64,000 bases of DNA from Methanobacteriota archaeon (GCA_016841955.1 JAENYE010000003.1:1-64000), one strand, 5' to 3'; positions 3,741 through 19,625 are shown, numbered from the stretch's first letter. Numbers and translations are program-made. The notes: a model not told the origin generated them from the letters alone.

Positions 3741-5186
3741 TCAGAGCACGCCGGGCCAGGGAATGCCGAGATTCACGGTCAGTTCCTTCAGTTCGTCGTG
3801 GATACCCCGGTCGATTTTGAGGAGGACCAGGAGATAGACCAGTCCGCCGAGTGCGACCGCTCCGAGAACGACGAAGACGTTCGAGAGCGGGATGACGAAC
3901 GAGTAGGCCATGACGACGGCGCCCATCACGAGCGCGGCAAGGACGATGTTGCCCACGGCCCGGGGCTCTATCCGCACCCGGATGCTCCGGGAGAGGGCAC
4001 GACGGGCGAGCACCGCGTTCAGCACCATGGTGCCGAGCGTGGCCGCCGATGCCCCGACGATGCCGTATGCCGGGATGAGGAGGACGTTTAAGCCGACGTT
4101 TACGGTAACCGCGATTGCCGTTACCCGGAACGCGTCTTTCGGCCGGTCGAGGGCGCTCAAGCACATCGTCTGGAGGAACATGAAGACGTGGGCTACCTGG
4201 ACGAGCAGGAGTATCGAAAGAGCCGCTGCCCCGGCGGAGAACGATGCCCCGTAGAAGAAGTAGAGGAGCCGTTCGCCGAGGAGCCAACCCCCGGCAAGGA
4301 CCGGGACCGCGAGCAGGAGCGAGTAGGTGAAGGCACGGGCAAGCGCGTTCTCCGCCGAAGAGAGGTCGTCCTTTTTCCCCCAGTAACTGACCTTCGGGTA
4401 GAGGGTGGTACGGAGCGCTACGGTGACGAACGTCGCGATTGATGTGAGCTGGAGTGCCACACGGTAGATGCCGACGTCGGCGTCCGTCATGAACTGACCG
4501 ATCAGGATGGTGTCGGCGTATGAGAAGACGAGGTAGCCGCTTGCGCTGAGGAACGTCCAGAACGAAAAGGCAAAGAGGCTCGAGATATGGGAGCGGGCAA
4601 ACGGCGCCAGCGAGAGATCGAGGAAACGGAAGGCGAAGACCCCTCCTGCAAGGAGCCCGGCGACGAACCCGCCGGCGAGGCCTGCAACACTGTAGCCGAG
4701 GACGACCGCGACGACCTGGACGGCTACCCGGATCACGTTGTTGAGCAAGCCACTGATCTGGTTGACGCCGACCTTCCCGGTGCCGTAGACCGCATTTGAG
4801 GCGATGTTCGTGAAGACGCTGACGACCAGCGCGAGGACCAGCCAGGGAAAGACTCCCGATGAGGTGAGGTCGGTGAGGTATGGCTGTGCAATGAAGAGGA
4901 AGCCCACCGAGACGGCCACCAGCACCACCCGGAGAGAGATAAATGCGGTGAAGAATGCGTTCTGGTCCTCGCCCTCGCTGATCCGCTTTACCGCGGCGCC
5001 CCCGAATCCGCCGTCTCCTATCAGGTTGAACACGCTGAAGTAGGCGACAAAGAGAAAGTATGCGCCCAGTATCGACGGACCGACCGTATGGGCGAAGAAC
5101 ATCGTGGAGAGGAACCCGACCGCGGTGAGGCCCAGCGTTGAGGCGAGGCTGATGAGACTCTGGCGCTGGATGGGGTCGATGCGCAT
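3741..5186 (-). CDS. Polysaccharide/oligosaccharide flippase (Wzx-like, MOP superfamily)
   Basis: 481 residues with about 12-14 hydrophobic segments, starting MRIDPIQRQSLISLASTLGL, typical of RfbX/Wzx flippases that move lipid-linked glycans across the cytoplasmic membrane. The frame stays open upstream to 5516, but that extension is not hydrophobic and overlaps the divergent promoter region. ATG 5186 is preferred; ATG 5225 would add 13 residues. It is transcribed away from the sugar-nucleotide genes starting at 5416 and is probably the exporter of the glycan built by this locus. Confidence 0.88.
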   Translation of the reverse strand: MRIDPIQRQSLISLASTLGLTAVGFLSTMFFAHTVGPSILGAYFLFVAYFSVFNLIGDGGFGGAAVKRISEGEDQNAFFTAFISLRVVLVAVSVGFLFIAQPYLTDLTSSGVFPWLVLALVVSVFTNIASNAVYGTGKVGVNQISGLLNNVIRVAVQVVAVVLGYSVAGLAGGFVAGLLAGGVFAFRFLDLSLAPFARSHISSLFAFSFWTFLSASGYLVFSYADTILIGQFMTDADVGIYRVALQLTSIATFVTVALRTTLYPKVSYWGKKDDLSSAENALARAFTYSLLLAVPVLAGGWLLGERLLYFFYGASFSAGAAALSILLLVQVAHVFMFLQTMCLSALDRPKDAFRVTAIAVTVNVGLNVLLIPAYGIVGASAATLGTMVLNAVLARRALSRSIRVRIEPRAVGNIVLAALVMGAVVMAYSFVIPLSNVFVVLGAVALGGLVYLLVLLKIDRGIHDELKELTVNLGIPWPGVL

Positions 5187-5415
5187 GACACGGGCAAGAT
5201 ACCCGGAAGGGCGGAACACAGGCATTGGTTTCGCCGTGAAAAACCTTATTGGTTTTGAACCGAAGCAGGCGAGGGGGCCGCGATCCGGCAGGCCGGATAT
5301 GTCCCTGTCCCGGAACGAGGGCCGCGATAACGTCATAGCGGAGCGGTGCCAATGTATAGTATTACTATCCAGTACTCCGGGAAAGGGCACGTACAATACT
5401 ACCGGTGGTGAGATC

Positions 5416-6330
5416 TTGGACGTAGGGGTAATCGGTGTCGGAATGATGGGCAGGAACCATGCCCGTGTATACTCGGAATTGAAGGCTGTGGACTCGCTCC
5501 ACCTGTTCGACCTCAACCTGAAGGCTGCCGGCGAACTTGCCGGGGCATTCGGGGCAACGGCCTCCCCGACCGTTGAGAGCCTGCTTGAGCGCGTGGACGC
5601 GGTGAGCGTCTGTGTCCCGACGCCCTACCACTTCGGGGTTGCGGAGACGATCCTCGACGCCGGGGTGCCGCTGCTGATCGAAAAGCCCATCTGCGCGACG
5701 GCGGAAGAGAGCAGGCAGCTCATCGGGAAGATCCCCGACGGCCTTGTCGTCGGCGTCGGGCACATCGAGCGGTTCAACCCGATCGTCCCCGAGATCAAAA
5801 AGATCGTCCGAAACCCCCTCTACATCGAGATGAAGCGGCATAACCCGGCCTCTTCCCGGGTGAGCGGCTCCTCGGTCGTCGAGGACCTGATGATCCACGA
5901 TGTGGATATCATGCGAAACGTTCTTCTCCCCGACGGGGCCTATCGGCTCGCCGGCAGCGGCAACGAGGATGTCTGCAGCGCCCTCTTCTCCTTCGGAGGG
6001 ACCCCGGTCTACCTCTCCGCAAGCAGGAAATCCTCAAAGAAGATTCGGATGATCTACATCGAGGAGGAGGAGTTCACCGTCGAGGGCGACTTTATGGCCC
6101 AGGAGATCTACATCCACCGTAAACCCGGGCAGTACGCGGTCGAGGACGAGCGTTACGTGCAGGAGAACATCATCGAGAAGGTGCTCGTGAACAAGCAGGA
6201 GCCGCTGAAACTCGAACTCTCGACGTTCCTCGACTGCGCGGCCCAAGGAAGGGAGTTCCCGGTCAGCCCCGCACAGGCGCTGCTGAATATGGAGATATGC
6301 GAGGATGTCGCGCGATGTTTTGCTATGTAG
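5416..6330 (+). CDS. Gfo/Idh/MocA oxidoreductase, probable UDP-GlcNAc(A) 3-dehydrogenase
   Basis: 304 residues. Rossmann motif GVIGVGMMGRNH near the N-terminus, EKP at about 89-91, and the family motif MIHDVDI near 160. Members next to wecB, wecC and a DegT aminotransferase oxidise C3 of a UDP-N-acetyl-hexosamine or its uronate, the first step towards 3-amino sugars (Methanococcus N-glycan ManNAc3NAcA-type sugar; WlbA in bacteria). The substrate here is inferred from neighbours. Start is TTG 5416, preceded by GGTGGTGAG; the frame extends to 5104, but that part is antisense to the flippase gene. Confidence 0.85.
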   Translation: MDVGVIGVGMMGRNHARVYSELKAVDSLHLFDLNLKAAGELAGAFGATASPTVESLLERVDAVSVCVPTPYHFGVAETILDAGVPLLIEKPICATAEESRQLIGKIPDGLVVGVGHIERFNPIVPEIKKIVRNPLYIEMKRHNPASSRVSGSSVVEDLMIHDVDIMRNVLLPDGAYRLAGSGNEDVCSALFSFGGTPVYLSASRKSSKKIRMIYIEEEEFTVEGDFMAQEIYIHRKPGQYAVEDERYVQENIIEKVLVNKQEPLKLELSTFLDCAAQGREFPVSPAQALLNMEICEDVARCFAM

Positions 6331-6342
6331 GGTGGTTTTTGC

Positions 6343-7788
6343 ATGAATAGCAGGTTACAGTCGATCATCGACAGGAGAGGGCCGATCCGGAATATCGGTG
6401 TTGTCGGGATGGGGTACGTCGGCATTCCCGCCGCGGTGCTCTTTGCGGACGCACCCGATTTCGAGTCAGTCCGGGGATTCCAGCGCGACTCTCCATCCTC
6501 CGGTTACAAGGTCGCTCTGCTCAACCGGGGGGAGTCCCCGCTCAAGGGCGAGGAGCCGGGGCTTGAAGAACTTCTTTTGAAGGTCGTCGGCGCGGGTAAG
6601 TTCCGGTGCACATCGGACTTCTCCGAGGTCGCGGAGTGCGATGCGGTAACCCTTGCCATCCAGACCCCGTTTAAAGACCCAAAGGACCTCATCCCCGACT
6701 TCTCGGCCCTGATCGAGGGGCTTAGGCAGGTGGGAAGGCACCTCTCGGATGGCACGCTCGTGGTGCTTGAGTCGACGGTCACCCCCGGCACGACCGCCGG
6801 GATGGCCCGCGAGATCCTCGAAGAGGAATCGGGTCTTGTCGCCGGCGAGGAGTTCTGCCTCGCGCACGCCCCCGAGCGGGTGATGGTCGGCAGGCTGCTC
6901 AAGAACATCCGGGAACACGACCGGATCGTCGGCGGGATCGACGATGTCTCCACGGCGCGTGCGGTCGAACTCTACCGGCCGGTGCTCACGACGGGGAAGA
7001 TCATCCCGATGACCGCGACCGCGGCCGAGGTGACGAAGACCGCAGAGAACGCCTTCCGCGACCTCCAGATCGCCGCCGCAAACCAGCTCGCCCTCCACTG
7101 TGAGGCGATGGGCGTCAACGTCTACGACGTCCGCGCGGGGATTGACTCCCTCAAGGGCGAGGGGATCACCCGGGCCATACTCTGGCCGGGCGCCGGTGTC
7201 GGCGGCCACTGCCTCACGAAGGACTCCTGGCACCTCGAGCGGGGCGCACAGGTACTCGGACATGGCGATCTCTGGTACCCGCACGGGTCAGAGTCGATCT
7301 TCGGCGTCGCAAGAAGGATCAACGAGTTCATGCCCCGGCACATGGTCCACCTGACCCTCGAAGGGCTCAAGCGGACGGGTAAGTCCCCGGAGGGCGCGAA
7401 GGTCGCGCTCCTCGGGTGGGCGTTCATCCAGAACTCGGACGACACCAGGAACACCCCGGCGGAGCCCTATCTCGCGGCGATGGAGGAGGCGGGCGCGGAA
7501 GTCAGGGTCCATGACCCGTTCGTGAACGACTACACGGGGATAGAGGTCTCGCACGACCTCGAGGGGACCCTCGCGGGCGCGGACGTCGTCACCATCTTCA
7601 CCGGTCACCACCATTACCTCTCCCTCGACCCCGCCCGGGTAAAGGAACTCTCAGGCCGGGAGCATCCGGTGGTCATCGACGGCAGGAACGTCGTCGACCC
7701 GGACGCATTTATCCGGGCGGGATTCGTCTACAAGGGCATCGGCCGGGGCGACAAAAACAGCCACGAGGTCGCTCCCGGGCGGCGATAG
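6343..7788 (+). CDS. wecC: UDP-N-acetyl-D-mannosamine dehydrogenase WecC-like
   Basis: 481 residues of the UDP-glucose/GDP-mannose dehydrogenase family. N-terminal NAD motif GVVGMGYVG (19-27), catalytic Cys290 in GAGVGGHCLTKDSW, and a C-terminal UDP-binding domain with LGWAFIQNSDDTRNTP. The enzyme oxidises UDP-ManNAc twice to UDP-ManNAc-uronate. It lies 12 bases after the dehydrogenase gene and 2 bases before wecB, so it is part of one operon. UDP-GlcNAc dehydrogenase activity cannot be excluded from sequence alone. Confidence 0.9.
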   Translation: MNSRLQSIIDRRGPIRNIGVVGMGYVGIPAAVLFADAPDFESVRGFQRDSPSSGYKVALLNRGESPLKGEEPGLEELLLKVVGAGKFRCTSDFSEVAECDAVTLAIQTPFKDPKDLIPDFSALIEGLRQVGRHLSDGTLVVLESTVTPGTTAGMAREILEEESGLVAGEEFCLAHAPERVMVGRLLKNIREHDRIVGGIDDVSTARAVELYRPVLTTGKIIPMTATAAEVTKTAENAFRDLQIAAANQLALHCEAMGVNVYDVRAGIDSLKGEGITRAILWPGAGVGGHCLTKDSWHLERGAQVLGHGDLWYPHGSESIFGVARRINEFMPRHMVHLTLEGLKRTGKSPEGAKVALLGWAFIQNSDDTRNTPAEPYLAAMEEAGAEVRVHDPFVNDYTGIEVSHDLEGTLAGADVVTIFTGHHHYLSLDPARVKELSGREHPVVIDGRNVVDPDAFIRAGFVYKGIGRGDKNSHEVAPGRR

Positions 7789-7790
7789 CC

Positions 7791-8870
7791 ATGAAGATCG
7801 CATCGATCGTCGGCGCCCGGCCGCAGTTCATCAAATGCGCTCCCGTCTCCCGGGAACTCAGGAAGGAGCACGAGGAGATCCTCATCCACACCGGCCAGCA
7901 CTACGACCACGGCATGTCGGAGGTCTTCTTTGAGGAGCTCCGCATCCCGAAGCCCGACTACAACCTTGGTATCGGCTCCGGGACCCACGGCCACCAGACC
8001 GGGGCGATGCTCGGGGCGATCGAGGACGTCCTCAAAAAGGAGCGTCCGGACCTTGTCCTGGTCTACGGCGACACGAACTCGACCCTCGCGGGCGCGCTTG
8101 CGGCGGCGAAACTCCATATCCCGGTCGCCCACGTCGAGGCAGGGCTCCGGAGTTTTGATCGCCGTATGCCCGAGGAGGTCAACCGGGTGCTCACCGACCA
8201 CGCATCGGATCTCCTCTTCTGCCCGACGGAGACCGCTGTTGCGAACCTCGCGGCCGAGGGGGTCACTGGGGGTGTCCACCTCGTCGGAGACGTGATGCTT
8301 GATGCGATGAACTACAACCGTATGGTCGCGGAAGAGCGCTCCCGGATCCTCGATGAGGTCGGGGTCGAACCGGGGGACTACCTCGCCATCACCGTCCACC
8401 GGCCCTCGAACACCGACAGCAGGGAGAACATGACCGCCATTCTCGGCGCCCTCGGGGAGGCCGATAGACCGGTCGTTTTCCCGGTCCACCCCCGGACGCG
8501 GAAGTGCCTCAGCGAACACGGTCTCCTCGCGGAGGTGCCGGAAAACATCCGGGTCGTCGAGCCGCTTGGCTACCTCGACATGATCCGCCTGATGGCGCAC
8601 GCGGAAAAGATCCTCACCGACTCCGGCGGCGTCCAGAAAGAGGCCTACATGCTCGGCGTCCCCTGCATCACCCTCCGGGAGAACACAGAGTGGGTCGAGA
8701 CCGTCGAGGCCGGGTGGAACGTGCTCGTAGGGGCCGACAAAAAGTCCATCGTCAAGTTTGTGAGTGAGTTTATGCCGCCCCGAGAGCGACGCTACATCTT
8801 CGGAAATGGAGATGCGAGCAAGGAGATCCTTAGGAGTCTCTCAGAATACAAAGGAGTCCGATATGGATAA
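7791..8870 (+). CDS. wecB: UDP-N-acetylglucosamine 2-epimerase (non-hydrolysing)
   Basis: 359 residues. Shows KCAPVSREL near the N-terminus, HVEAGLRSFDRRMPEE in the middle, TVHRPSNTDSRENM and the C-terminal DSGGVQKEA and LRENTEWVET motifs of the WecB/MnaA family (GT-B fold). It interconverts UDP-GlcNAc and UDP-ManNAc and supplies the substrate for the adjacent WecC. It overlaps the next gene by 8 bases, indicating translational coupling. Confidence 0.93.
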   Translation: MKIASIVGARPQFIKCAPVSRELRKEHEEILIHTGQHYDHGMSEVFFEELRIPKPDYNLGIGSGTHGHQTGAMLGAIEDVLKKERPDLVLVYGDTNSTLAGALAAAKLHIPVAHVEAGLRSFDRRMPEEVNRVLTDHASDLLFCPTETAVANLAAEGVTGGVHLVGDVMLDAMNYNRMVAEERSRILDEVGVEPGDYLAITVHRPSNTDSRENMTAILGALGEADRPVVFPVHPRTRKCLSEHGLLAEVPENIRVVEPLGYLDMIRLMAHAEKILTDSGGVQKEAYMLGVPCITLRENTEWVETVEAGWNVLVGADKKSIVKFVSEFMPPRERRYIFGNGDASKEILRSLSEYKGVRYG

Positions 8871-9984
8871 AATTCCTCTTACAAGACCTTATTTCGGCCA
8901 GGAAGAGATCGATGAGATCCGGAAAGTGCTTGAATCCGGCTGGGTCGCACAGGGGCCGAAAGTACAGGAATTTGAGACAAACGTAGCTGAGCACCTTGGT
9001 ACCCGGTATGCCGTTGCCGTCACAAACTGTACCGCTGCGCTCCACCTGGCCCTTCTTGCTGTCGGCATTACGGGAGGCGATGAGGTTCTGGTCGCCGATT
9101 ATACTTTCCCTGCCACCGGGCATGCTGTCCTCTACTGCGGGGCGACGCCAGTCTTTGTGGATATCGATCCGAAGACCTACAACATCGACCCGGAAAGGAT
9201 CGAAGATGCGATCACCGATCGGACGAAGGCCATCATTCCGGTTCATACCTTCGGTCAACCTGCTGATATGGATCCGATCCTGCAGAATGCCGCCGATCAC
9301 GGGCTTACAGTGATCGAGGATGCGGCATGCGCACTGGGAGCCCGGTATAAAGAGCGCTATGCCGGGACAATCGGGGATGTCGGCTGTTTTTCATTCCACG
9401 CCAGAAAGGGGATCACCACTGGTGAGGGAGGCATGCTCGTGACGGACAACCGGGATATTGCCGCGAAGGCCAGGCACCTTGCTACCTTTGGTATGACAAC
9501 TGCGTGGACTCGGGAGCAGAGCGATGCCTTTACCATCCCGGCCTTCACCGATGTTGGTTACAACTACAAAATGAGCGACATCACGGCTGCGGTGGGTGTT
9601 GCACAATTGCGGCGCCTAGATATCATCATCGAGCGGCGGGGTGCCCTTGCCCGGCACTGGGACCGGTGCCTCGAGTCGATCGACGGGATCGCTCCACCTT
9701 ACGTGGACCCGGGCGTAACAGCAATCTACCAGACTTATGTTGCTCTCGTCGATCCGGGCATCGATAGGAACCGGCTCATCTCTGAACTCCAGCGCCGGGG
9801 TATACAAACACAGATTGGCACCTATGCCTCCCATATCCAGCCGGTATATGGTTCACGTGAACTGTGCAGCCATTCGTTGGATATATACAACCGCGCAATC
9901 GCTCTCCCGCTCTATGTCTCATTGACGGAGAATGAAATCGATATAATTGCTCGGACACTCAAGGATATACTCGGAGAGTTATAA
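8863..9984 (+). CDS. DegT/DnrJ/EryC1/StrS sugar aminotransferase
   Basis: 373 residues. PLP-binding Lys182 in SFHARKGITTGEGG, acidic motif IEDAAC near 151, and N-terminal PLTRPYFGQEEIDEI. These fold-type I aminotransferases convert a keto-sugar nucleotide to an amino sugar with glutamate. With the upstream 3-dehydrogenase and downstream acyltransferase this fits a 3-amino-3-deoxy uronate branch. ATG 8863 has AAGGAG 8 bases upstream and overlaps the wecB stop; the longer frame from 8764 only reads over wecB. Confidence 0.9.
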   Translation: MDKIPLTRPYFGQEEIDEIRKVLESGWVAQGPKVQEFETNVAEHLGTRYAVAVTNCTAALHLALLAVGITGGDEVLVADYTFPATGHAVLYCGATPVFVDIDPKTYNIDPERIEDAITDRTKAIIPVHTFGQPADMDPILQNAADHGLTVIEDAACALGARYKERYAGTIGDVGCFSFHARKGITTGEGGMLVTDNRDIAAKARHLATFGMTTAWTREQSDAFTIPAFTDVGYNYKMSDITAAVGVAQLRRLDIIIERRGALARHWDRCLESIDGIAPPYVDPGVTAIYQTYVALVDPGIDRNRLISELQRRGIQTQIGTYASHIQPVYGSRELCSHSLDIYNRAIALPLYVSLTENEIDIIARTLKDILGEL

Positions 9985-10952
9985 TGTGTTTGAAGAACCG
10001 ATCGGTGCTGGTCACAGGCGGGGCCGGATTTATCGGGAGCCACCTCGTGGATGCCCTTGCCCGGGAGGAACTCGAAAACCTTGTCGTCGTCGATAACCTG
10101 TTTCTCGGGAAAGATGAGAACTTAGAGGAGGCCCGTAGTGCCTATTCCGGCCTGAAGATCTATCACGACGATGCGGCCGATTACGAGCGAATGAAGACCC
10201 TGATGGAACGTGAGAGTATCGATGTCGTCTTCAACCTGGCTGTTATCCCCCTCCCCGCTTCACTCGAACGGCCGGTCTGGACATTCCGCCAGAACATCGA
10301 TATGGTTGCCACCATGTGCGAGCTCGCCCGCAACGACGTGTATGAAACCCTGATCCACTTCTCCTCGTCGGAGGTCTACGGCAGTTCGATCTACGCGCCG
10401 ATGGACGAAAACCACCCCCTGAACGCGACCACCCCGTATGCTGCAAGCAAGGCCGCAGGGGATCTGATGATATCCTCCTACTGCCGAACGTTCGGGCTGG
10501 ATGTATCTCTTATCCGTCCCTTCAACAATTATGGGCCGCGGCAAAACGATAGGAGCTATGCCGGAGTCATCCCGCTCACCATACAGCGGATCCTCCGGAA
10601 AGAACCACCGGTCATATACGGTGATGGAAAACAGACCCGGGATTACCTCTACGTAACCGATACCGCACGGGCGGCGATTGACGTGTACAACACACCGAGC
10701 ACCCGCGACCGGGTGCTGAACATTGCCAGCGGGAAAGAGGTCTCAATCGAGTACATCATCCAGTCTATTGCCCGATATTTTGGATGCGAAGATAAGATTC
10801 TTTATCAGGCCGAACGTCCGGGAGATGTCAGGCGACATATTGCAAATGCATATATGGCCAAGGATCTGATCAATTTTAGGCCTTGCGTGACCTTCGACGA
10901 AGGACTGGTGCGCACGATCGAGTGGTACGAACAGTCTATGCGCCAGAAGTAA
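9984..10952 (+). CDS. NAD-dependent epimerase/dehydratase (nucleotide-sugar SDR)
   Basis: 322 residues of the extended SDR family. TGGAGFIG at 11-18 binds NAD, FSSSEVYG contains the catalytic serine region (127-133), and Tyr152-x3-Lys156 is in PYAASK. RPFNNYGPRQ is typical of dTDP-glucose 4,6-dehydratases, UDP-glucuronate decarboxylases and 4-epimerases; I cannot decide which. Its start shares one base with the preceding stop (TAATG), so it belongs to the same operon. Confidence 0.87.
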   Translation: MCLKNRSVLVTGGAGFIGSHLVDALAREELENLVVVDNLFLGKDENLEEARSAYSGLKIYHDDAADYERMKTLMERESIDVVFNLAVIPLPASLERPVWTFRQNIDMVATMCELARNDVYETLIHFSSSEVYGSSIYAPMDENHPLNATTPYAASKAAGDLMISSYCRTFGLDVSLIRPFNNYGPRQNDRSYAGVIPLTIQRILRKEPPVIYGDGKQTRDYLYVTDTARAAIDVYNTPSTRDRVLNIASGKEVSIEYIIQSIARYFGCEDKILYQAERPGDVRRHIANAYMAKDLINFRPCVTFDEGLVRTIEWYEQSMRQK

Positions 10953-10979
10953 CGCGATCCGAGGAGCAAGAGAGAACCA

Positions 10980-11516
10980 ATGAACTTCGAGGGAATCCGC
11001 CAGCACAGAAGCCATGGTAGCGGTGCCTTTCGTCTCGAGGATTTTGCCAATCTCGGAACTAACGTTATCTTTGAAGATGGTGTACGGGTATTCCATCCCG
11101 AACACATTGAGATCGGGGAGAACGTCTATATCGGCCATGGGACTGTCCTCAAAGGCTATTACCGAAATAGAATGGTCATCGGTGACGATACCTGGATAGG
11201 CCAGTCTTCTTTTCTTCATAGTGCAGGAGGGATCAGAATAGGGCAGGCAGTTGGTATCGGACCCGGTGTATCCATCCTCACATCGGTGCACACCGAAGGA
11301 AATCTCTCCCGGCCAATCATTCTGAACGACCTTGAATTTGGTGAGGTCGTGATCGAAGACGGATGCGACATCGGCATCAACGCGATCCTTTTGCCCGGTC
11401 TCGCTATCGGGGAAGGGACCATCATCGGTGCGGGTTCAGTCGTAACCCGGGATATACCGGCGTATAGCGTTGCAGCTGGAAACCCCTGCCGTGTCCTCAG
11501 GAGTCGAAAGGGGTAA
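10980..11516 (+). CDS. Left-handed beta-helix (hexapeptide) acyltransferase
   Basis: 178 residues with repeated hexapeptides (IEIGENVYIGHGTVLKG, IGDDTWIGQSS, IEDGCDIGINAILLPG, IGEGTIIGAGSVVTRDI) forming a LbetaH trimer domain. Probably acetyl-CoA-dependent N- or O-acetylation of a sugar or sugar nucleotide; in this context it could acetylate the amino group placed by the DegT enzyme. A purine-rich stretch (GAGGAGCAAGAGAGAA) lies before the ATG. Confidence 0.85.
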   Translation: MNFEGIRQHRSHGSGAFRLEDFANLGTNVIFEDGVRVFHPEHIEIGENVYIGHGTVLKGYYRNRMVIGDDTWIGQSSFLHSAGGIRIGQAVGIGPGVSILTSVHTEGNLSRPIILNDLEFGEVVIEDGCDIGINAILLPGLAIGEGTIIGAGSVVTRDIPAYSVAAGNPCRVLRSRKG

Positions 11517-11527
11517 CTGCGATACCC

Positions 11528-12805
11528 ATGACGCATCCAAGGATCTTCATCGGCCTAACCGAAGTTGCAGGGTACCACGCCAACCTGAAACGGGGCTTGG
11601 AGAACCTGGGATATGCCTGCACATTTATCAACCTGCGCCCGCATCCGTTCGGTTATGGGGGCGACGATGTACCGTTCCCATCCGTCAGGGTTCAACGGTG
11701 GGCAAACCTTCATCTTGATGCGTCATCATCAAGCCTGGTAAGAATTCTTCTCTTCGGTATCATTCAGCTCTGCAATATCCCTCTCTTTCTCTGGGCTCTC
11801 GCCAGACACGATGTCTTCATCTTCGGATATGCCTCCACCTTCTTCGGTTTCTTCGAGCTGCCAATCCTCAAACTCTTTGGCAAACGGATCATTTTCATCT
11901 TTTTCGGTTCCGATGAACGCCCGGCATTTCTCGACGGTGCACTCATGTCAACTCATATCGGGAGTACCATCGCGGATTGCATCCGGCATACGGCAAAGCA
12001 GAAACGGAGGCTGAAACGTATCGAGCGGTATGCGGATGTTCTTGTCAGCAACCCGGCATCGGCTCACCTGCATGAGAAGAAGTTTGTCCAGTGGCTTGCA
12101 ATCGGGATCCCATTCTCCTCTGCTGAAGAGGAGACACAAGAGATGCATCGGGTGCCGCAAGGGGTACGAATCCTCCACGCTCCTTCAGCCCCAAAGATGA
12201 AAGGAAGTGACAACATCCGGGCGGTAATTCGGACGCTTCAGGAGAAGGGATACTCGATCGAATATGTTGAGGTTGCAGGGAAGCCGCACGATGTGGTGCT
12301 TGAAGAACTGCAGGCATGCGACTTTGTGATCGATCAGACCTACTCTGATACGCCGATGGCTATGTTTGCAGCCGAAGCGGCGGCATTTGGGAGACCCGCT
12401 ATCGTTGGGGGATATTATGTGGATCATATCCATGGCAATGTCTCAGAACAACTGATTCCTCCCGTCATCTACTGCCATCCGGACAAGATCGTCGAAGCTG
12501 CGGAACGCCTGATAATCGACGAGACGTTCCGGCTGGATCTCGGAAGGAAGGCAAGGGCGTTCGTCAGGGAGAGGTGGAATCCCACTGCGGTGGCCGAGCG
12601 GTATGCTCGGATGATCGAGGGGACGACACCGGATATCTGGTTCTTCGATCCTCTCACGATCATCTATCTTCATGGTGCTGGGATGCCCGAAAGCCAGGTG
12701 CGCGACCGGGTCAAAGCGACCATCGAGGTTGGGGGAGTGGGTGCTCTCCAGTTGACCGACAAGCCGGATCTTGAGCAGAGGTTCCGGGAGTTCTGCGGGA
12801 GTTAG
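11528..12805 (+). CDS. Glycosyltransferase-like protein (GT-B type, family unclear)
   Basis: 425 residues. N-terminal half has GYHANLKRGLENLGY and a hydrophobic stretch around residues 70-130 that may sit in or on the membrane. The C-terminal half has the layout of a nucleotide-sugar binding domain: DFVIDQTYSDTPMAMFAAEAAAFGRPAIVGG, where an acidic residue and a glycine-rich turn resemble GT1/GT4 enzymes. Within the glycan operon it is probably a sugar transferase; donor and acceptor are unknown. Confidence 0.7.
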   Translation: MTHPRIFIGLTEVAGYHANLKRGLENLGYACTFINLRPHPFGYGGDDVPFPSVRVQRWANLHLDASSSSLVRILLFGIIQLCNIPLFLWALARHDVFIFGYASTFFGFFELPILKLFGKRIIFIFFGSDERPAFLDGALMSTHIGSTIADCIRHTAKQKRRLKRIERYADVLVSNPASAHLHEKKFVQWLAIGIPFSSAEEETQEMHRVPQGVRILHAPSAPKMKGSDNIRAVIRTLQEKGYSIEYVEVAGKPHDVVLEELQACDFVIDQTYSDTPMAMFAAEAAAFGRPAIVGGYYVDHIHGNVSEQLIPPVIYCHPDKIVEAAERLIIDETFRLDLGRKARAFVRERWNPTAVAERYARMIEGTTPDIWFFDPLTIIYLHGAGMPESQVRDRVKATIEVGGVGALQLTDKPDLEQRFREFCGS

Positions 12806-12927: not shown

Positions 12928-12996
12928 ATGTGTGGGATTGCAGTACTCATCAATCCGGCCCCCCCTTATTCCCGTTACACCTCCGATTCGCCATGA
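12928..12996 (+). pseudogene. Possible remnant of an asparagine synthetase (glutamine amidotransferase) start
   Basis: A 22-codon frame begins MCGIAVLINPAP, matching the start of class II glutamine amidotransferases such as AsnB, where Cys2 is the nucleophile. It stops at 12996. AsnB homologues are common in surface-polysaccharide loci. A TATA-like GATTTTTAG lies near 12879. A chance match is possible because only about eight residues are diagnostic. Confidence 0.4.
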
Positions 12997-12999
12997 TAG

Positions 13000-13007
13000 T
13001 TATATAT
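13000..13007 (+). promoter_or_regulatory. TATA box upstream of glycosyltransferase at 13076
   Basis: TTATATAT in AT-rich context 69 bases before the GTG start; predicts transcription starting near 13030 with a leader of about 45 bases. Confidence 0.45.
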
Positions 13008-13075
13008 CCCTCCACATAGATGCAGCCCCATCACATGGCTCTGGAGCCGGTCCAGCAGAGTCCGGGGGAACTCAA

Positions 13076-14083
13076 GTGGAGCAGCAAAAGAAGATATTCC
13101 TGGTGTCTCCTTCTCCATCCACGTTCACGCAACGCGACCTGGAGGCACTCAGGCAGGAATACCTGGTCCGAGAGGCCGTTATCAGTAGTTACCAGGGGAG
13201 AAACGGCCTGAAACGGTCCCTCCTGATCGCATTCGAGATCCTGCGGGGAGTCCTCTGGGCCGATCTCACCTACTCCTGGTTTGCCCACAACCATTCGTAT
13301 CTTGCCGTAATGCTGGCAAGCCTCCTCGGGAAGAGAACCATCGTTGTCATCGGCGGATACGAGGTCGCGAGAGAGCCGGAGATCGGGTACGGTGCCCTGC
13401 TCGACCCAAAACTCACAAAGAGAGTGAACTACATCATCCGGAATGCAGACCACATCCTCGCGGTATCGGAGTTCAACAGACGGGAGATACTGGAACTGGG
13501 CGATCACCGCCACGTTGCGGTCGTCTATAACGGGATCGACTGCGCGCAGTTCACCCCGGGAGAGGAGAAAGGCGACCTCGTCATCACGGTATGCCAGATT
13601 AACCGGAACAACATCACGCTCAAGGGCCTCGATACGTTCCTCAACACCGCAAGACGCCTCCCGGACCTCCGGTTCGCCATAATCGGCCGCGTTCTCGACG
13701 GGAGCATCGAGGACCTGAGACGAGATGCTCCCGATAATGTCGAGTTTGTCACGTCCCCTTCTCAGGACGAACTCCTGCAGTGGTACCGCCGGGCAAAGGT
13801 CTACTGCCAGCTCTCCTACCGGGAATCGTTCGGTGTGGCACTTGCCGAAGCGATGTCCTGCGAGTGCGTCCCCGTGGTGACGGACAGGGGGGCTCTCCCG
13901 GAGGTGGTGGGAGACGCGGGATTCGTGGTGCCGTACGGCGATGTGGAAGCGGCGGCGGCGGCGATATCCAAGGCCCTGCAATCAGATAGGGGCAGGGCGG
14001 CAAGAGTTAGAGTTGAGAAGGAATTTTCCCTTGAGGGGAGAAAGCAAAAGATCCAGGGCATTATCGAGGAAAAACCCGCATGA
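13076..14083 (+). CDS. Glycosyltransferase family 4
   Basis: 335 residues, GT-B fold. NGIDCAQF and VITVCQINRNNITLKGLDTF mark the domain linker and donor site; ESFGVALAEAMSCECVPVV is the EX7E motif of retaining family-4 enzymes. Start GTG 13076 has GGGGGAA 6 bases upstream; the frame stays open to 12932, but that part overlaps the putative asnB remnant and a TATA box. Probably adds a hexose-type sugar to the lipid-linked glycan. Confidence 0.85.
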   Translation: MEQQKKIFLVSPSPSTFTQRDLEALRQEYLVREAVISSYQGRNGLKRSLLIAFEILRGVLWADLTYSWFAHNHSYLAVMLASLLGKRTIVVIGGYEVAREPEIGYGALLDPKLTKRVNYIIRNADHILAVSEFNRREILELGDHRHVAVVYNGIDCAQFTPGEEKGDLVITVCQINRNNITLKGLDTFLNTARRLPDLRFAIIGRVLDGSIEDLRRDAPDNVEFVTSPSQDELLQWYRRAKVYCQLSYRESFGVALAEAMSCECVPVVTDRGALPEVVGDAGFVVPYGDVEAAAAAISKALQSDRGRAARVRVEKEFSLEGRKQKIQGIIEEKPA

Positions 14084-14191: not shown

Positions 14192-15169
14192 TCAGGACGG
14201 CCTCCTGATGAGCGTGTCGACAGACTTCCGTACGTTATTGTTCCCGCTCAGTACATCGTAAACAAATTTTGCAATGGGCATATCGACATCATGGTTACTT
14301 GCCAGCTCAATTATCCCTTTAACAGACTTAGACCCCTCAAATGTCACACCGGACCCTAAATACGGAGTTTTTATTATATTCTTTCCGACCATCAGCCCCA
14401 ATGTTCGATTACGGCTTTTATCCACGTTGGCAGTCAGGTTAAAATCTCCAAAGCAGCAGAATTTTGTGAATATATCCTTGTCAAGAGAGACTACCTTCAG
14501 AAATGCGCACATCTCCTTATAGCACATATTCAAGAAAGTGTAGTGTTCGTTATAGTTGCTGTAAACCGAATCCCACATTCCTGTTCCGATGGCGTATACG
14601 TTCTTCAGCACACCGCACAACTCGACCGCCCTGAGGTCATACGAAAAATCCAGGATGAATTGACCGAACAGGTCCGATATCGTTGTTTTTAGCGATGGAT
14701 CGTCGCCGATACCTATTGTAGCACCGGCAATATGGCCGTATGCAATCTCATCGGCGAAGGTTGGCCCCGAGAAACAGGCTATATCCGGGTTGTCCGTTTC
14801 GTCGAGAATAATTTCGCTCATTGTTTTTAGTGACGGATATTCAAGCCCTTTGGCTACGGTGACAAGGATCTTGCCTGCAAGTTCGTCGCGGATAGCGTTA
14901 ACGACGGATCGAACTTCGCTGGAGGGCACGGCGATAATTATGGCCTTGCAGTCTGTGATATCCGATATATCGTTCATCAGTCTTGCACGGATATTGGGGT
15001 TCAAACGCAGACCCGGGAAGTAATTCGTATTATGGTTGTCGACGTTAATCGAATCGACAACCTCTCGTTTCCTTCCGAATATGATTACTTCTCCGGCCCT
15101 CCTGGAGATACTCTGTGCGATGGCGGTACCCATGCTCCCGGCGCCGATGACCCCTACTTTCGATATCAT
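14192..15169 (-). CDS. NAD(P)-dependent glycerol-3-phosphate dehydrogenase-like (GpsA family)
   Basis: 325 residues. N-terminal GVIGAGSMGTAIA (GxGxxG 9-14), VAKGLE (105-110), SGPTFADEIA (134-143), and the catalytic-lysine segment CGVLKNVYAIGTG with Lys189, all in GpsA order. GpsA reduces dihydroxyacetone phosphate to sn-glycerol-3-phosphate. Archaeal lipids use sn-glycerol-1-phosphate, so a different use is expected. It overlaps the nucleotidyltransferase gene by 4 bases (ATGA). The DNA is clearly more AT-rich than its neighbours, suggesting transfer. A related polyol-phosphate dehydrogenase is possible. Confidence 0.85.
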   Translation of the reverse strand: MISKVGVIGAGSMGTAIAQSISRRAGEVIIFGRKREVVDSINVDNHNTNYFPGLRLNPNIRARLMNDISDITDCKAIIIAVPSSEVRSVVNAIRDELAGKILVTVAKGLEYPSLKTMSEIILDETDNPDIACFSGPTFADEIAYGHIAGATIGIGDDPSLKTTISDLFGQFILDFSYDLRAVELCGVLKNVYAIGTGMWDSVYSNYNEHYTFLNMCYKEMCAFLKVVSLDKDIFTKFCCFGDFNLTANVDKSRNRTLGLMVGKNIIKTPYLGSGVTFEGSKSVKGIIELASNHDVDMPIAKFVYDVLSGNNNVRKSVDTLIRRPS

Positions 15170-15954
15170 CCGAACCGCCCCCGTGTGCCTTCACATATGC
15201 CTGCAATGGTTCTGGCATACTTTAGATCGTGCAGATCATCAATTTCCGTCCATTTGAGCCCGTTCGTGAACGAGTATGCAAGGTTCCTGCTCTTTGATAG
15301 GGATTGGTATATGAAATCGTAATAATTGTTTAAATTATCTGAAACCAATATTTTCAGCAATCTTTTTGCTTCCCGAAGGTCGGCAGAAGAGATCTTCGAG
15401 ATGCCGATAAACTCTCCAGTCGCTTTTTCTATCGGGACGGTTTTTCCCATCTCTTCAATCCGGTCGTCGATTATCCTCAATTTGAATGATTCTTCGGTGA
15501 GCATTTTCTTATTATCAACTGAAATTGCTGTTTGATTCAGTTCTAATAAATTATTCAAGATTGTATAATCATACAGCACATCGCCGTTAAAAATAACAAC
15601 ATCATCGTGCACGTCATCTAACCCAATATGGAGAGAATAGGCCGTATTCGTTGACAGATAGTCGTTATTGTGAACTAAGTTTAAATCAGTACCATACTTT
15701 CTCCCCAGTGTCGCGCACGCTTCCCGTACCATATCCGCTTTATACCCGACGACGATGGTGATTGCGTCCACATTGAAAGACACCAGATCCGAGACCATTC
15801 GTTCCAGTAGCGTGTAACCGTCGATAGTAAGCAGGCATTTCGGGCCGATCTTCTCGAGATCGATGTCTCTACCCAATCGTCGCCCACGCCCTGCTGCTAG
15901 AATCACCCCGATCAAAATGAAACACCGAGCTGGTTTATCGAGGGTTACACACAT
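15166..15954 (-). CDS. Sugar/polyol-phosphate nucleotidyltransferase
   Basis: About 262 residues of the NTP-transferase superfamily: GVILAAGRGRRLG with PKCLLTIDG (nucleotide and metal site), VVGYKADMV, and NGDVLYDYTI, whose aspartate binds Mg. It resembles LicC-type cytidylyltransferases. With a GpsA-like enzyme downstream and a CDP-glycerol transferase homologue upstream, it may make CDP-glycerol from glycerol-3-phosphate; this is inference, and other NTP or polyol-phosphate pairs are possible. The start may be ATG 15954, or TTG 15915 closer to the conserved motif. Very AT-rich around 15540-15610. The 274 bases upstream (15955-16228) hold a TATA box but no gene that I can support. Confidence 0.78.
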   Translation of the reverse strand: MCVTLDKPARCFILIGVILAAGRGRRLGRDIDLEKIGPKCLLTIDGYTLLERMVSDLVSFNVDAITIVVGYKADMVREACATLGRKYGTDLNLVHNNDYLSTNTAYSLHIGLDDVHDDVVIFNGDVLYDYTILNNLLELNQTAISVDNKKMLTEESFKLRIIDDRIEEMGKTVPIEKATGEFIGISKISSADLREAKRLLKILVSDNLNNYYDFIYQSLSKSRNLAYSFTNGLKWTEIDDLHDLKYARTIAGICEGTRGRFG

Positions 15955-15960
15955 CGTCCG

Positions 15961-15975
15961 GTTATAAGAATATTT
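15961..15975 (-). promoter_or_regulatory. TATA-like element for nucleotidyltransferase gene
   Basis: Minus strand reads AAATATTCTTATAAC just upstream of ATG 15954. The spacing is short, so transcription would start close to or inside the annotated start; this favours the TTG 15915 start if the element is used. Confidence 0.35.
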
Positions 15976-16228
15976 GGCTGTTGAATGAGTGCAACCTCTT
16001 GTGCTGTTGCGGATATCCCAAAACGGTCTGCAAACCTTTAGCTTACCCTGGCAGAAAAATCCTGTGCGGCGTTTCTGCCATGCTGGCTATAACTGGGGTC
16101 TGAAGCGGACACGCTTTTACCCTGGTATCGCCTCGTGGAGGAGGAGGGTGCTTGAGAAGATCAAAGGTCTTCGAGCGGATCCACCCCCTCCCGCCGGAAG
16201 ATTCTGGGACGACTTCAACCGAATCATG

Positions 16229-17416
16229 TTAACGTTGGCCGATCAACCCGCAGACTCTTTCGCATGCAAGCCCATCGGCGTACCTGAACGCCAATCTTCT
16301 TATCCTGGTTCTCTTCGGTTCCCATCTCCCCGGACTGGCAAGGGAGCTCGTAAGGGCCTCTATCAATTCATCAACATTAGTCGAAATATCTCCCGGGGCC
16401 CAATCGCGAAACGGTTCGACAATAAATCCCCTTCGCTTCCGGTAATCCTCACTGTCGGGCACATGGAAGACGATAGGCCGGTTCAGGTGCAGGAAATCAA
16501 AGTACACCGAAGAATAGTCGGTAACCAGGATATCAACAACGTTCAGGAAATCGTAAATCGTGTTGTCCGTTTTCTGCAGGTCAGCATTTAATAATATACA
16601 AATGTGCTCTCCATTGTACACTTGAAACAGATTCTCGTCATGAGAGTGCGGTTTGCAGACAAACAACAGGTTCTCGTCCTTCACGAACCGGTGAAATTTT
16701 TCACTTGCAAGGATTTCTTCCAGAACTCTACGGCTCGCATCGGCATCATATTCCCGGAAAGTCGGAAGATACAGTACAATCCTCTTTTCAGGAATACCCT
16801 CCTGACCGAGAATACGATAGAGTACATTCACCCCGGAATCTCCAGACCTGTAAAGAGCGTCGCAACGGGGCTGCCCGAGGATCAAAATTTTTCTGGCATT
16901 GATCAGGAAAACGGAAGAGAAGACCAGCCGCTCGAATTCCGAGGTTGTGATGAGGTAGTTCACGGAATTCGCAAACCTCCGCAATCTCTGTGCTGCGGAG
17001 AATCTCGCGATGGTGCTCGGATAGTCAGTATTGGCAAAGTACCCAATCGTCTTTAGCGGGAGACCGTGCCACAACTCGATGCTGACCTGGTTTTTGGACT
17101 TCCAGGCGGGTGTGCCGTGAGTACTGATGATGTACTTTGCCGTCAACGCGTGGTAGATATACTCGCGCGATCGCCGGATGACGTAATTTGCATGAACGGG
17201 CGAATAAACGCACCAGATCAACTGGTGGGTTTCACCGAAACCTGATTCGAGCATTTTGTCGTAGACGTATTTCGCATTATCTGAGAAATCGGGTACCGAA
17301 AAAAACAGGATCTTATGCTCGTTTTTTGGCACGAGTCGGGACAATGCTGAGAAAATGAGTGTAACAATATCGTAGATCAGCGATCGAATATCATTGACGA
17401 TGTCGTGAGAGATCAT
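16229..17416 (-). CDS. CDP-glycerol glycerophosphotransferase-like (TagB/TagF family)
   Basis: 395 residues. HKILFFSVPDFSDNAKYVY begins the family core, followed by LWHGLPLKTIGY, LPTFRE, KPHSHDEN and the signature VTDYSSVYFDFL near the C-terminus. In bacteria these membrane-associated enzymes transfer glycerol-phosphate or ribitol-phosphate from CDP-polyols to build teichoic acids. The frame continues to 17662, but the upstream part is GC-rich with no family match; ATG 17416 follows a TATA box (17449-17460) at a distance suiting a short-leader mRNA. Its two downstream neighbours supply a plausible donor pathway. It could also transfer another polyol phosphate. Confidence 0.85.
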   Translation of the reverse strand: MISHDIVNDIRSLIYDIVTLIFSALSRLVPKNEHKILFFSVPDFSDNAKYVYDKMLESGFGETHQLIWCVYSPVHANYVIRRSREYIYHALTAKYIISTHGTPAWKSKNQVSIELWHGLPLKTIGYFANTDYPSTIARFSAAQRLRRFANSVNYLITTSEFERLVFSSVFLINARKILILGQPRCDALYRSGDSGVNVLYRILGQEGIPEKRIVLYLPTFREYDADASRRVLEEILASEKFHRFVKDENLLFVCKPHSHDENLFQVYNGEHICILLNADLQKTDNTIYDFLNVVDILVTDYSSVYFDFLHLNRPIVFHVPDSEDYRKRRGFIVEPFRDWAPGDISTNVDELIEALTSSLASPGRWEPKRTRIRRLAFRYADGLACERVCGLIGQR

Positions 17417-17733: not shown

Positions 17734-18870
17734 ATGAAAATCTGCATGCTTGCATCCACTCATGGACCAAATGACGGTCGGATATTCCAGAAAGAGGCAA
17801 AGAGTCTTGCAAAGGAGCACGAGGTTACGATCGTTGCCCCTTCGGACGGGAGCGGCATCAGCATCGCCGACGGTATCCGTATTGTCACCGTAAAGCGGCC
17901 GGACTCCATCGCTCTCCACCCTCTCACGCTTCTCCGGCTCTTCCGGGCATGCCTCGCTCAGGATGTCGATGTCTACCACTGCCATGAGCCTGACGCCCTT
18001 CTCATCGGAGTCCTTGCGAAGTTCCTCAAAGGGAAACGGGTCGTCTACGATATCCACGAGCACTGGCCGAGCGAGATCCCGTACGACATCGGAATCCGGA
18101 ACGGTACGGTGATACAGAGGACACTGTCTGCACTTGTCTCAGGCGTGGAAATTGCACTGGCTCGCCGCGCAGAGAGCACATTCGCCGTAAGCGAGAGCGT
18201 TGCCGCGAGATTCAGGGAGAAGGGACTTAAGCCGATCATTCTCTCAAACTACTCCATCACCGACCTCGATATCCCTTATAATCTGAACAGGAGCGGCCGG
18301 AAACTTATGTTCGTGGCGGGAAACATCCACTCCTTCCACGGTGTCGGAGAATGCATCCAGGCGGTCTCCCGGGTCAGGGAACGCTATCCCGATGTGGTGC
18401 TCACGCTCGTCGGGAACGTTCGGGAGGACCTTAACGAACGTATCAGCGGATCCGACCAGAATGCGTTCATCAACTCCACCGGATTCCTCCCCTACAGGGA
18501 GATGTACGAGAAACTGAACGAAGGCGTCGCTGGTCTTCTTGTTTTCCAGCCGACATACTACAACATCTCCATCGGTCTGCCGAACAAGCTCTTCGACTAT
18601 ATGCTCCTCGGGCTCCCGGTTATTGCAAGCGACCTGCCGGAGATCCGTAACGTCGTCAGCAAGGCAGACTGCGGCATCCTCGTCGACCCGGAGAGCGTGA
18701 GTGATATCGCCGATGCAATCGCATACCTCTTCGATCACCCGGAAGAGGCGCAGAGGATGGGCGCGAACGGAAGACGGGCGGTTCTTGAGAAGTACAACTG
18801 GTCCGCGATGGAGGCAGATCTTCTGCAGGCATACCGGAACCTGGATGACACGCTCTCTAAATCCACATGA
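17734..18870 (+). CDS. Glycosyltransferase family 4
   Basis: 378 residues, GT-B fold. MKICMLASTHGPNDGRIFQKEAKSL and YHCHEPDALLIG form the acceptor-side Rossmann domain; NIHSFHGVGECIQAV and LPNKLFDYMLLGLPVIASDLPEI form the donor domain. The EX7E region is changed to NKLFDYMLLG, as in a subgroup of GT4 enzymes. It closes the glycan locus and lies about 80 bases before a HAD phosphatase. Sugar specificity unknown. Confidence 0.85.
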   Translation: MKICMLASTHGPNDGRIFQKEAKSLAKEHEVTIVAPSDGSGISIADGIRIVTVKRPDSIALHPLTLLRLFRACLAQDVDVYHCHEPDALLIGVLAKFLKGKRVVYDIHEHWPSEIPYDIGIRNGTVIQRTLSALVSGVEIALARRAESTFAVSESVAARFREKGLKPIILSNYSITDLDIPYNLNRSGRKLMFVAGNIHSFHGVGECIQAVSRVRERYPDVVLTLVGNVREDLNERISGSDQNAFINSTGFLPYREMYEKLNEGVAGLLVFQPTYYNISIGLPNKLFDYMLLGLPVIASDLPEIRNVVSKADCGILVDPESVSDIADAIAYLFDHPEEAQRMGANGRRAVLEKYNWSAMEADLLQAYRNLDDTLSKST

Positions 18871-18950: not shown

Positions 18951-19625
18951 ATGCTCACCACCCTCATCCTTGACTTCGACGGCGTTGTCGTTGAATCCCT
19001 CCCCCTAAAGACCGCTGCATTCAAAAAGGTCTTCTCCTTTACGCCCGAGCACCTTGACGAGATCATCGAGTTCCACCTCGAGAACGGCGGCATGTCCCGG
19101 TACGACAAGTTCCGCCACATCTACAAAAACATCCTCAACGAGCCCCTCACCGCCGAACAGGAGGAGCGGCTCGCGGGCGAGTACGCCGGGCTGATATTTG
19201 GCGCAATGCTCACCGTGCCGTACGTCCAGGGGGCGGAGGGACTCCTCAGGGACTGCTCCCGGGCACTTCCGCTCTACATCGTCTCCGCGACCCCCGAGGG
19301 CGAGATGCAGGAGATCGCCCGCCGCCGGGACCTGACCGGGTACTTCGTCCGGATCTACGGCTCGCCGAAGACGAAGGCCGAATGCATCCGGGAGATCCTC
19401 GACGAGACCGGCGCCTCACCGGGCGAGGCCCTCTTCGTCGGCGACGCCCCGAACGACTGGCAGGCGGCGTACGAGACCAATGTCCGGTTCGTCGCGAGGA
19501 TCCCGCCCGGCGACCCGAACCGCTTTGCCGGCCGTCCGGGGGTGGAGGGGATCATAGAGAACCTTCATGACCTCCGGGAGTACCTACGGGAAAGTATATG
19601 CTCATCCCGATCTCGTACCCCCTGA
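18951..19625 (+). CDS. HAD-superfamily hydrolase (phosphoglycolate phosphatase/beta-PGM-like)
   Basis: 224 residues. Motif I LDFDGVVVES with Asp8 and Asp10, a helical cap (about 15-90), motif II in YIVSATPEGE, motif III Lys in GSPKTKAEC, and motif IV VGDAPNDWQAA. Substrate probably a small phosphorylated sugar or sugar acid; near the glycan locus it may serve a hexose phosphate. It overlaps the next gene by 28 bases. Confidence 0.82.
   Translation: MLTTLILDFDGVVVESLPLKTAAFKKVFSFTPEHLDEIIEFHLENGGMSRYDKFRHIYKNILNEPLTAEQEERLAGEYAGLIFGAMLTVPYVQGAEGLLRDCSRALPLYIVSATPEGEMQEIARRRDLTGYFVRIYGSPKTKAECIREILDETGASPGEALFVGDAPNDWQAAYETNVRFVARIPPGDPNRFAGRPGVEGIIENLHDLREYLRESICSSRSRTP

Follow-up and report, generated by a model that had tools for sequence, protein, structure and literature searches.

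We identified, in a 64,000-nucleotide stretch of archaeal DNA (the window), a cassette of three genes that probably serves as a glycerol-phosphate decoration module within a surface-glycan locus. Its parts belong to known families, and its proposed workings parallel the teichoic acid pathway, yet curated cut-offs do not make it a Tag/Tar system. This reading draws on homology and, more strongly, on comparative evidence.

Three genes in a surface-glycan locus

The cassette consists of three intact open reading frames on the minus strand (14192-17416), as an earlier note on this DNA had claimed; the Pfam families matched and the signature VTDYSSVYFDFL was found. The archaeal setting also described there agrees with the named relatives, which place the window in the genus Methanoculleus. 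The genes of the locus are:

3741-5516, minus strand: Wzx/MurJ-type flippase (PF13440, E 3.6e-19; PF01943, 4e-15)
6343-11516, plus strand: nucleotide-sugar genes (Pfam), namely UDP-sugar dehydrogenase, UDP-GlcNAc 2-epimerase, DegT aminotransferase, SDR dehydratase and hexapeptide acetyltransferase
11528-12805, plus strand: probable glycosyltransferase (weak NCBIfam match, 5e-7)
12932-14083, plus strand: GT4 glycosyltransferase flanking the cassette (Pfam; kept beside it in several relatives)
14192-15169, minus strand: predicted GpsA-clade sn-glycerol-3-phosphate dehydrogenase, 325 aa (PF01210/PF07479)
15166-15954, minus strand: nucleotidyltransferase (NTPT), predicted COG1213/LicC-type CTP:phospho-alcohol cytidylyltransferase, 262 aa, or 249 aa from TTG 15915 (PF12804)
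16229-17416, minus strand: predicted PF04464 CDP-glycerol:glycan glycerophosphotransferase, TarF-sized, 396 aa (Glyphos_transf)
17734-18870, plus strand: GT4 glycosyltransferase flanking the cassette (Pfam; synteny)
18951-19625: HAD gene, beyond the flanking glycosyltransferase

The UDP-GlcNAc 2-epimerase passed the NCBIfam cut-off for WecB. Within the cassette, the genes for NTPT and GpsA share an overlap of 4 bp, and conservation indicates that NTPT probably starts at TTG 15915 rather than at 15954. The PF04464 frame runs on to 17662; as the alignment with most relatives does not begin until about 17416, we discarded the longer version. The GC content of the cassette genes is 0.44-0.48, compared to 0.61 for the window. 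Orthologues within the genus are ~75-88% identical, with dN/dS values of 0.09-0.19 for each gene. Therefore, all three are real genes under purifying selection.

Predicted activities of the three proteins

The earlier note had asked for HMM comparisons with the GpsA, LicC and Tag/Tar families and for structure predictions, and had named two findings that would speak against its pathway, a dehydrogenase without G3P-binding residues and an NTPT from a sugar-1-phosphate family. We observed neither of them. GpsA matched both GPDH Pfam domains (NAD_Gly3P_dh_N, 3e-33; NAD_Gly3P_dh_C, 5e-30), but stayed below the curated NCBIfam GpsA cut-offs (212.9 bits vs 257 for the best model) and therefore represents a divergent clade. 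In the alignment it retains K107, K189, N190, D242, T246, R253 and N254, all seven of which are invariant in the cassette clade. They align with K125, K210, N211, D263, T267, R274 and N275 of L. mexicana GPDH, the established DHAP/G3P-binding residues of that enzyme. The cassette clade departs from housekeeping GpsA at stretch 199-220, which is otherwise conserved. The predicted model (pLDDT 92.6) matched DHAP-binding GPDHs, its closest folds being C. burnetii GpsA (3k96), LmGPDH with DHAP (1n1e) and the human GPD1 ternary complex, with TM values of about 0.87-0.90 against solved GPDHs. Residues and fold, rather than equivalog models, thus suggest that the enzyme reduces DHAP. GpsA is encoded by a single copy in the genome (E<=1e-10).

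NTPT carries an NTP_transf_3 domain (PF12804, E 4e-14). The four best full-length matches of its family profile among solved relatives were PntC (98 bits), LicC (79 bits) and two inositol-1-phosphate cytidylyltransferases (IPCT; 65 and 63 bits), with sugar-1-phosphate enzymes ranking below and matching mainly in the N-terminal half. In a Foldseek search with the NTPT model, PntC and LicC came first and RmlA-type folds followed close behind. By profile and fold, NTPT groups with the CTP:phospho-alcohol cytidylyltransferases PntC, LicC and IPCT. Residues R13, K26, D112, E224 and D226 are invariant in the family, the first three being the R, K and D named as critical for COG1213 cytidylyltransferases, the substrates of which include phosphocholine, inositol-1-phosphate, phosphoglutamine and phosphoglycerate (PMC12275187). 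We propose that NTPT could act as a CTP:glycerol-3-phosphate cytidylyltransferase.

Other identities were considered for NTPT and rejected. The sugar-1-phosphate nucleotidylyltransferases RmlA, GlmU and AglF all scored far below cut-off and mainly in the N-terminal half, and a TarI/IspD-like identity was not supported by Pfam or profile search. TagD belongs to another superfamily, a difference that the earlier note had passed over, and NTPT has no TIGR01518 or cytidyltransferase-like domain. No TagD over cut-off was found in the genome either, the best TIGR01518 match reaching 29 bits vs 165, with only weak matches to the superfamily.

The third protein is a clear member of PF04464 (Glyphos_transf, E 2.5e-75; 254 bits vs a cut-off of 22.1). 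The catalytic residues H444 and H584 of TagF align with its motifs WH117G and KPH257, and VTDYSSVYFDF is kept. It stays below all Tar equivalog cut-offs (TarF 114/550, TarL 90/1000, TarB 47/500 bits), TarF being the nearest model and also similar in size. PF04464 also includes ribitol-phosphate transferases (TarL). Furthermore, two loci from the same genus/order combine PF04464 with a different COG1213 enzyme and without GpsA (L023, 13651-14463 and 9567-10823; L035, 8825-10012 and 10433-11176), and the surface glycans of these related methanogens probably receive a different alcohol activated with CDP. Therefore, PF04464 alone is not proof of glycerol. The earlier note had read the cassette as a full route from DHAP to a polyol-phosphate polymer: families and residues support the route, in which glycerol is the presumed polyol, whereas the product may or may not be a polymer, given that the transferase has the size of TarF and reaches none of the Tar equivalog cut-offs.

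Linkage of the cassette genes in other genomes

Among 61 related genomes, PF04464 occurs in 21 and the cassette GpsA in 15, all of which belong to the 21 and carry both genes on the same contig (hypergeometric 8e-10, ignoring kinship). The order PF04464-NTPT-GpsA is kept in most of the 15 genomes. In G025 and G043, NTPT-GpsA lies beside a PF04464 gene just 34-35% identical to that of the window, and in G022 a gene of this divergent sort is found about 8 kb from the pair. When the whole collection was searched for the GpsA clade, 80 loci were retrieved, 15 of the cassette clade (L061-L075) and 65 with ordinary bacterial gpsA. NTPT lies beside gpsA in all 14 cassette-clade loci in which the contig covers the NTPT side, the exception (L072) being cut at a contig end. 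By contrast, neither NTPT nor PF04464 was found within 9 kb of any of the 65 housekeeping genes, as far as the contigs reach. The cassette GpsAs form one group in the tree (support 100/100), and this single clade is the partner of three NTPT subtypes, one of them fused to a phosphatase domain. Only 9 of 394 genomes of the phylum contain the cassette GpsA (E<=1e-20), which is therefore not a housekeeping gene there.

The NTPT-GpsA pair was also detected in Gastranaerophilales, Deltaproteobacteria, an alphaproteobacterium, Methanobacteriaceae and another archaeal family. PF04464 usually accompanies these distant pairs in the locus or genome (seven of the eight such genomes tested were positive). 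A Gastranaerophilales locus contains PF04464, Wzx, an NTPT-HAD fusion and GpsA; that of a Methanobacteriaceae archaeon has the pair, Wzx and, at the contig end, PF04464; and in another family of the same phylum (L142) the order is NTPT-GpsA-PF04464. In the fusions, seen in one archaeon of the Methanomicrobiales and one bacterium of the Gastranaerophilales, NTPT carries an added phosphatase domain of the HAD-IIA (NagD-like) type, and GpsA follows directly (L021, 5010-6512, the same as L069; L070, 7478-8986). Searches of plasmids with the bacterial fusion and its GpsA returned only separate domains or GpsA with at most ~30% identity. In a deltaproteobacterium (L074, 1667-3316), a Stealth-family phosphotransferase adjoins the pair, and a PF04464 gene lies elsewhere in the genome.

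Within the Methanobacteriales, the order of one cassette-clade locus (L075), GpsA relatives were detected by profile search in 67 of 151 genomes. A COG1213-type NTPT is located beside or <=2 kb from GpsA in 16 of the 20 loci read, often with PF04464 and, where GpsA belongs to the close subgroup, also with Wzx. The other four (L174, L176, L177, L187) carry a sister GpsA subgroup in which T246 is changed to A. Three of them have a D-ribitol-5-phosphate cytidylyltransferase-type gene (over cut-off) and LicD-like genes nearby, and in the remaining one a LicD-like gene is accompanied by a TagD-like domain that scores 109 bits, less than the cut-off; one LicD-like gene was checked by HMM and the rest were called by eye. 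The dehydrogenase group of this order thus repeatedly teams with cytidylyltransferases of different superfamilies, which supports the pathway logic, yet the polyol may vary. Given the ribitol-type or TagD-like partners, the group is possibly not uniform in substrate, and the T246A enzymes might make another polyol phosphate.

Proposed route and competing explanations

In the route that we propose, GpsA would convert DHAP to sn-glycerol-3-phosphate, the enantiomer not used by archaeal lipids, and NTPT would combine this product with CTP to CDP-glycerol, in place of TagD. With CDP-glycerol as donor, the PF04464 enzyme would then add a single glycerol-phosphate or a chain to a glycan that the adjoining glycosyltransferases assemble, probably on a lipid, and that the Wzx flippase subsequently exports. 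The final acceptor could be a lipid-linked glycan, an S-layer glycan or a free polysaccharide. We lean slightly towards regarding this as a widespread archaeal route, shared by a few bacteria, in which CDP-glycerol is made by a TagD-unrelated COG1213-type enzyme together with a dedicated GpsA, so that such archaea use both enantiomers, the sn-1 form in lipids and the sn-3 form in surface glycans.

It is unlikely, though worth weighing, that the CDP-polyol made by the cassette is a different one, with the GpsA-like enzyme reducing for example ribulose-5-phosphate and NTPT activating a ribitol-type polyol phosphate. The ribitol-type partners of the sister subgroup in Methanobacteriales, the deviating stretch 199-220 and the inclusion of TarL in PF04464 would fit such a pathway, but the window's clade keeps all DHAP-binding residues, including the T246 lost in the sister subgroup, its closest folds are DHAP-binding GPDHs, and its NTPT is not TarI/IspD-like. 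A quite improbable variant is a CDP-2-glycerol route, in which glycerol-2-phosphate instead of sn-glycerol-3-phosphate is activated. The pneumococcal gtp1-gtp2-gtp3/wchX genes, which include a dehydrogenase, nucleotidyltransferase, phosphotransferase and transferase by wzx, resemble the cassette by gene names (PMC3493582), and the NTPT-HAD fusions of some relatives would also be in line with it. However, the window cassette contains no HAD or kinase, the HAD gene at 18951-19625 being outside, and the sn-3 ester is the product of GpsA chemistry.

Slightly more doubtful again is the transfer of a non-polyol phospho-alcohol, for instance a phosphonate or amino-acid alcohol, to a glycan sugar, with GpsA supplying an unrelated precursor. 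The best relative of NTPT is the phosphonate enzyme PntC, and for C. difficile a role of both families in phosphothreonine addition has been proposed (PMC10714395). Nevertheless, no phosphonate or amino-acid phosphate gene was seen next to the cassette, and all three NTPT types are partnered by GpsA. Very improbable, finally, is a GpsA for bacterial-type lipids or general glycerol metabolism that is placed by the transferase genes incidentally. Phospholipid supply is the usual task of GpsA, but most relatives have no GpsA, PF04464 is always there when GpsA is, and the pair, with its 4-bp overlap here, is conserved across phyla. We rejected a lipid role because a genome search that covered the PlsC family of acyltransferases found none. 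Together with the G1P-dehydrogenase-family gene and the two STT3/AglB-like genes of the genome, this supports the claim of the earlier note that a dedicated G3P supply suggests glycan decoration.

The proposed glycerol-phosphate route has the same steps as the Gram-positive wall teichoic acid pathway (TagD, TarB/TarF/TagF and housekeeping GpsA), leading from DHAP via G3P and CDP-glycerol to PF04464 transfer, and the catalytic histidines and the TDYSS motif are shared. It differs in being archaeal, in having a dedicated GpsA clade in a glycan locus and a COG1213-type cytidylyltransferase from a superfamily other than that of TagD, and in reaching no Tag/Tar equivalog cut-off. Peptidoglycan is not expected in the genus of the window, which is not known to have pseudomurein either. 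The Gram-negative TagF-like capsule polymerases Cps3D and Bcs3 also have a PF04464 domain in a surface-polysaccharide locus, but are large multi-domain enzymes, whereas the cassette protein stands alone with 396 aa. The nearest precedent for the cytidylyltransferase-transferase pair acting on a glycan is the proposed function of CD0242/CD0244 in the C. difficile flagellin Type A glycan, a LicC-like (COG1213) cytidylyltransferase and a TagF-like phosphotransferase, although phosphothreonine rather than glycerol is involved and no GpsA is mentioned (PMC10714395). With LicC, PntC, IPCT, Cj1416 and CpgD, NTPT shares fold and catalytic residues and presumably the CTP/phospho-alcohol chemistry, but its operon partner GpsA predicts sn-glycerol-3-phosphate, which was not given as a natural substrate in the COG1213 literature searched. 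That literature search also returned no description of the archaeal NTPT-GpsA-PF04464 set or the NTPT-GpsA pair, which is not proof of novelty.

If the proposed route is correct, archaea use a self-contained gene module to make surface glycans that carry phosphate and resemble teichoic acids, and both mirror-image glycerol phosphates serve separate purposes in one cell. CTP:glycerol-3-phosphate cytidylyltransferase activity would then occur in two independent enzyme superfamilies, that of TagD and that of NTPT, and the high wall phosphate of some Methanobacteriales would have a gene-level account. For Methanobrevibacter ruminantium, a high wall phosphate comparable to that of teichoic-acid walls is reported, which fits such polymers, and teichoic-acid-like genes include archaeal PF04464 members; this is a pseudomurein archaeon, however, and the passages cited do not describe an NTPT-GpsA-PF04464 cassette (PMC2812497). 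In one of the four T246A loci of the Methanobacteriales (L187, 5824-7152), a cytidylyltransferase domain appears by eye to be fused to a PEP-mutase-like domain, which suggests a phosphonate-bearing glycan.
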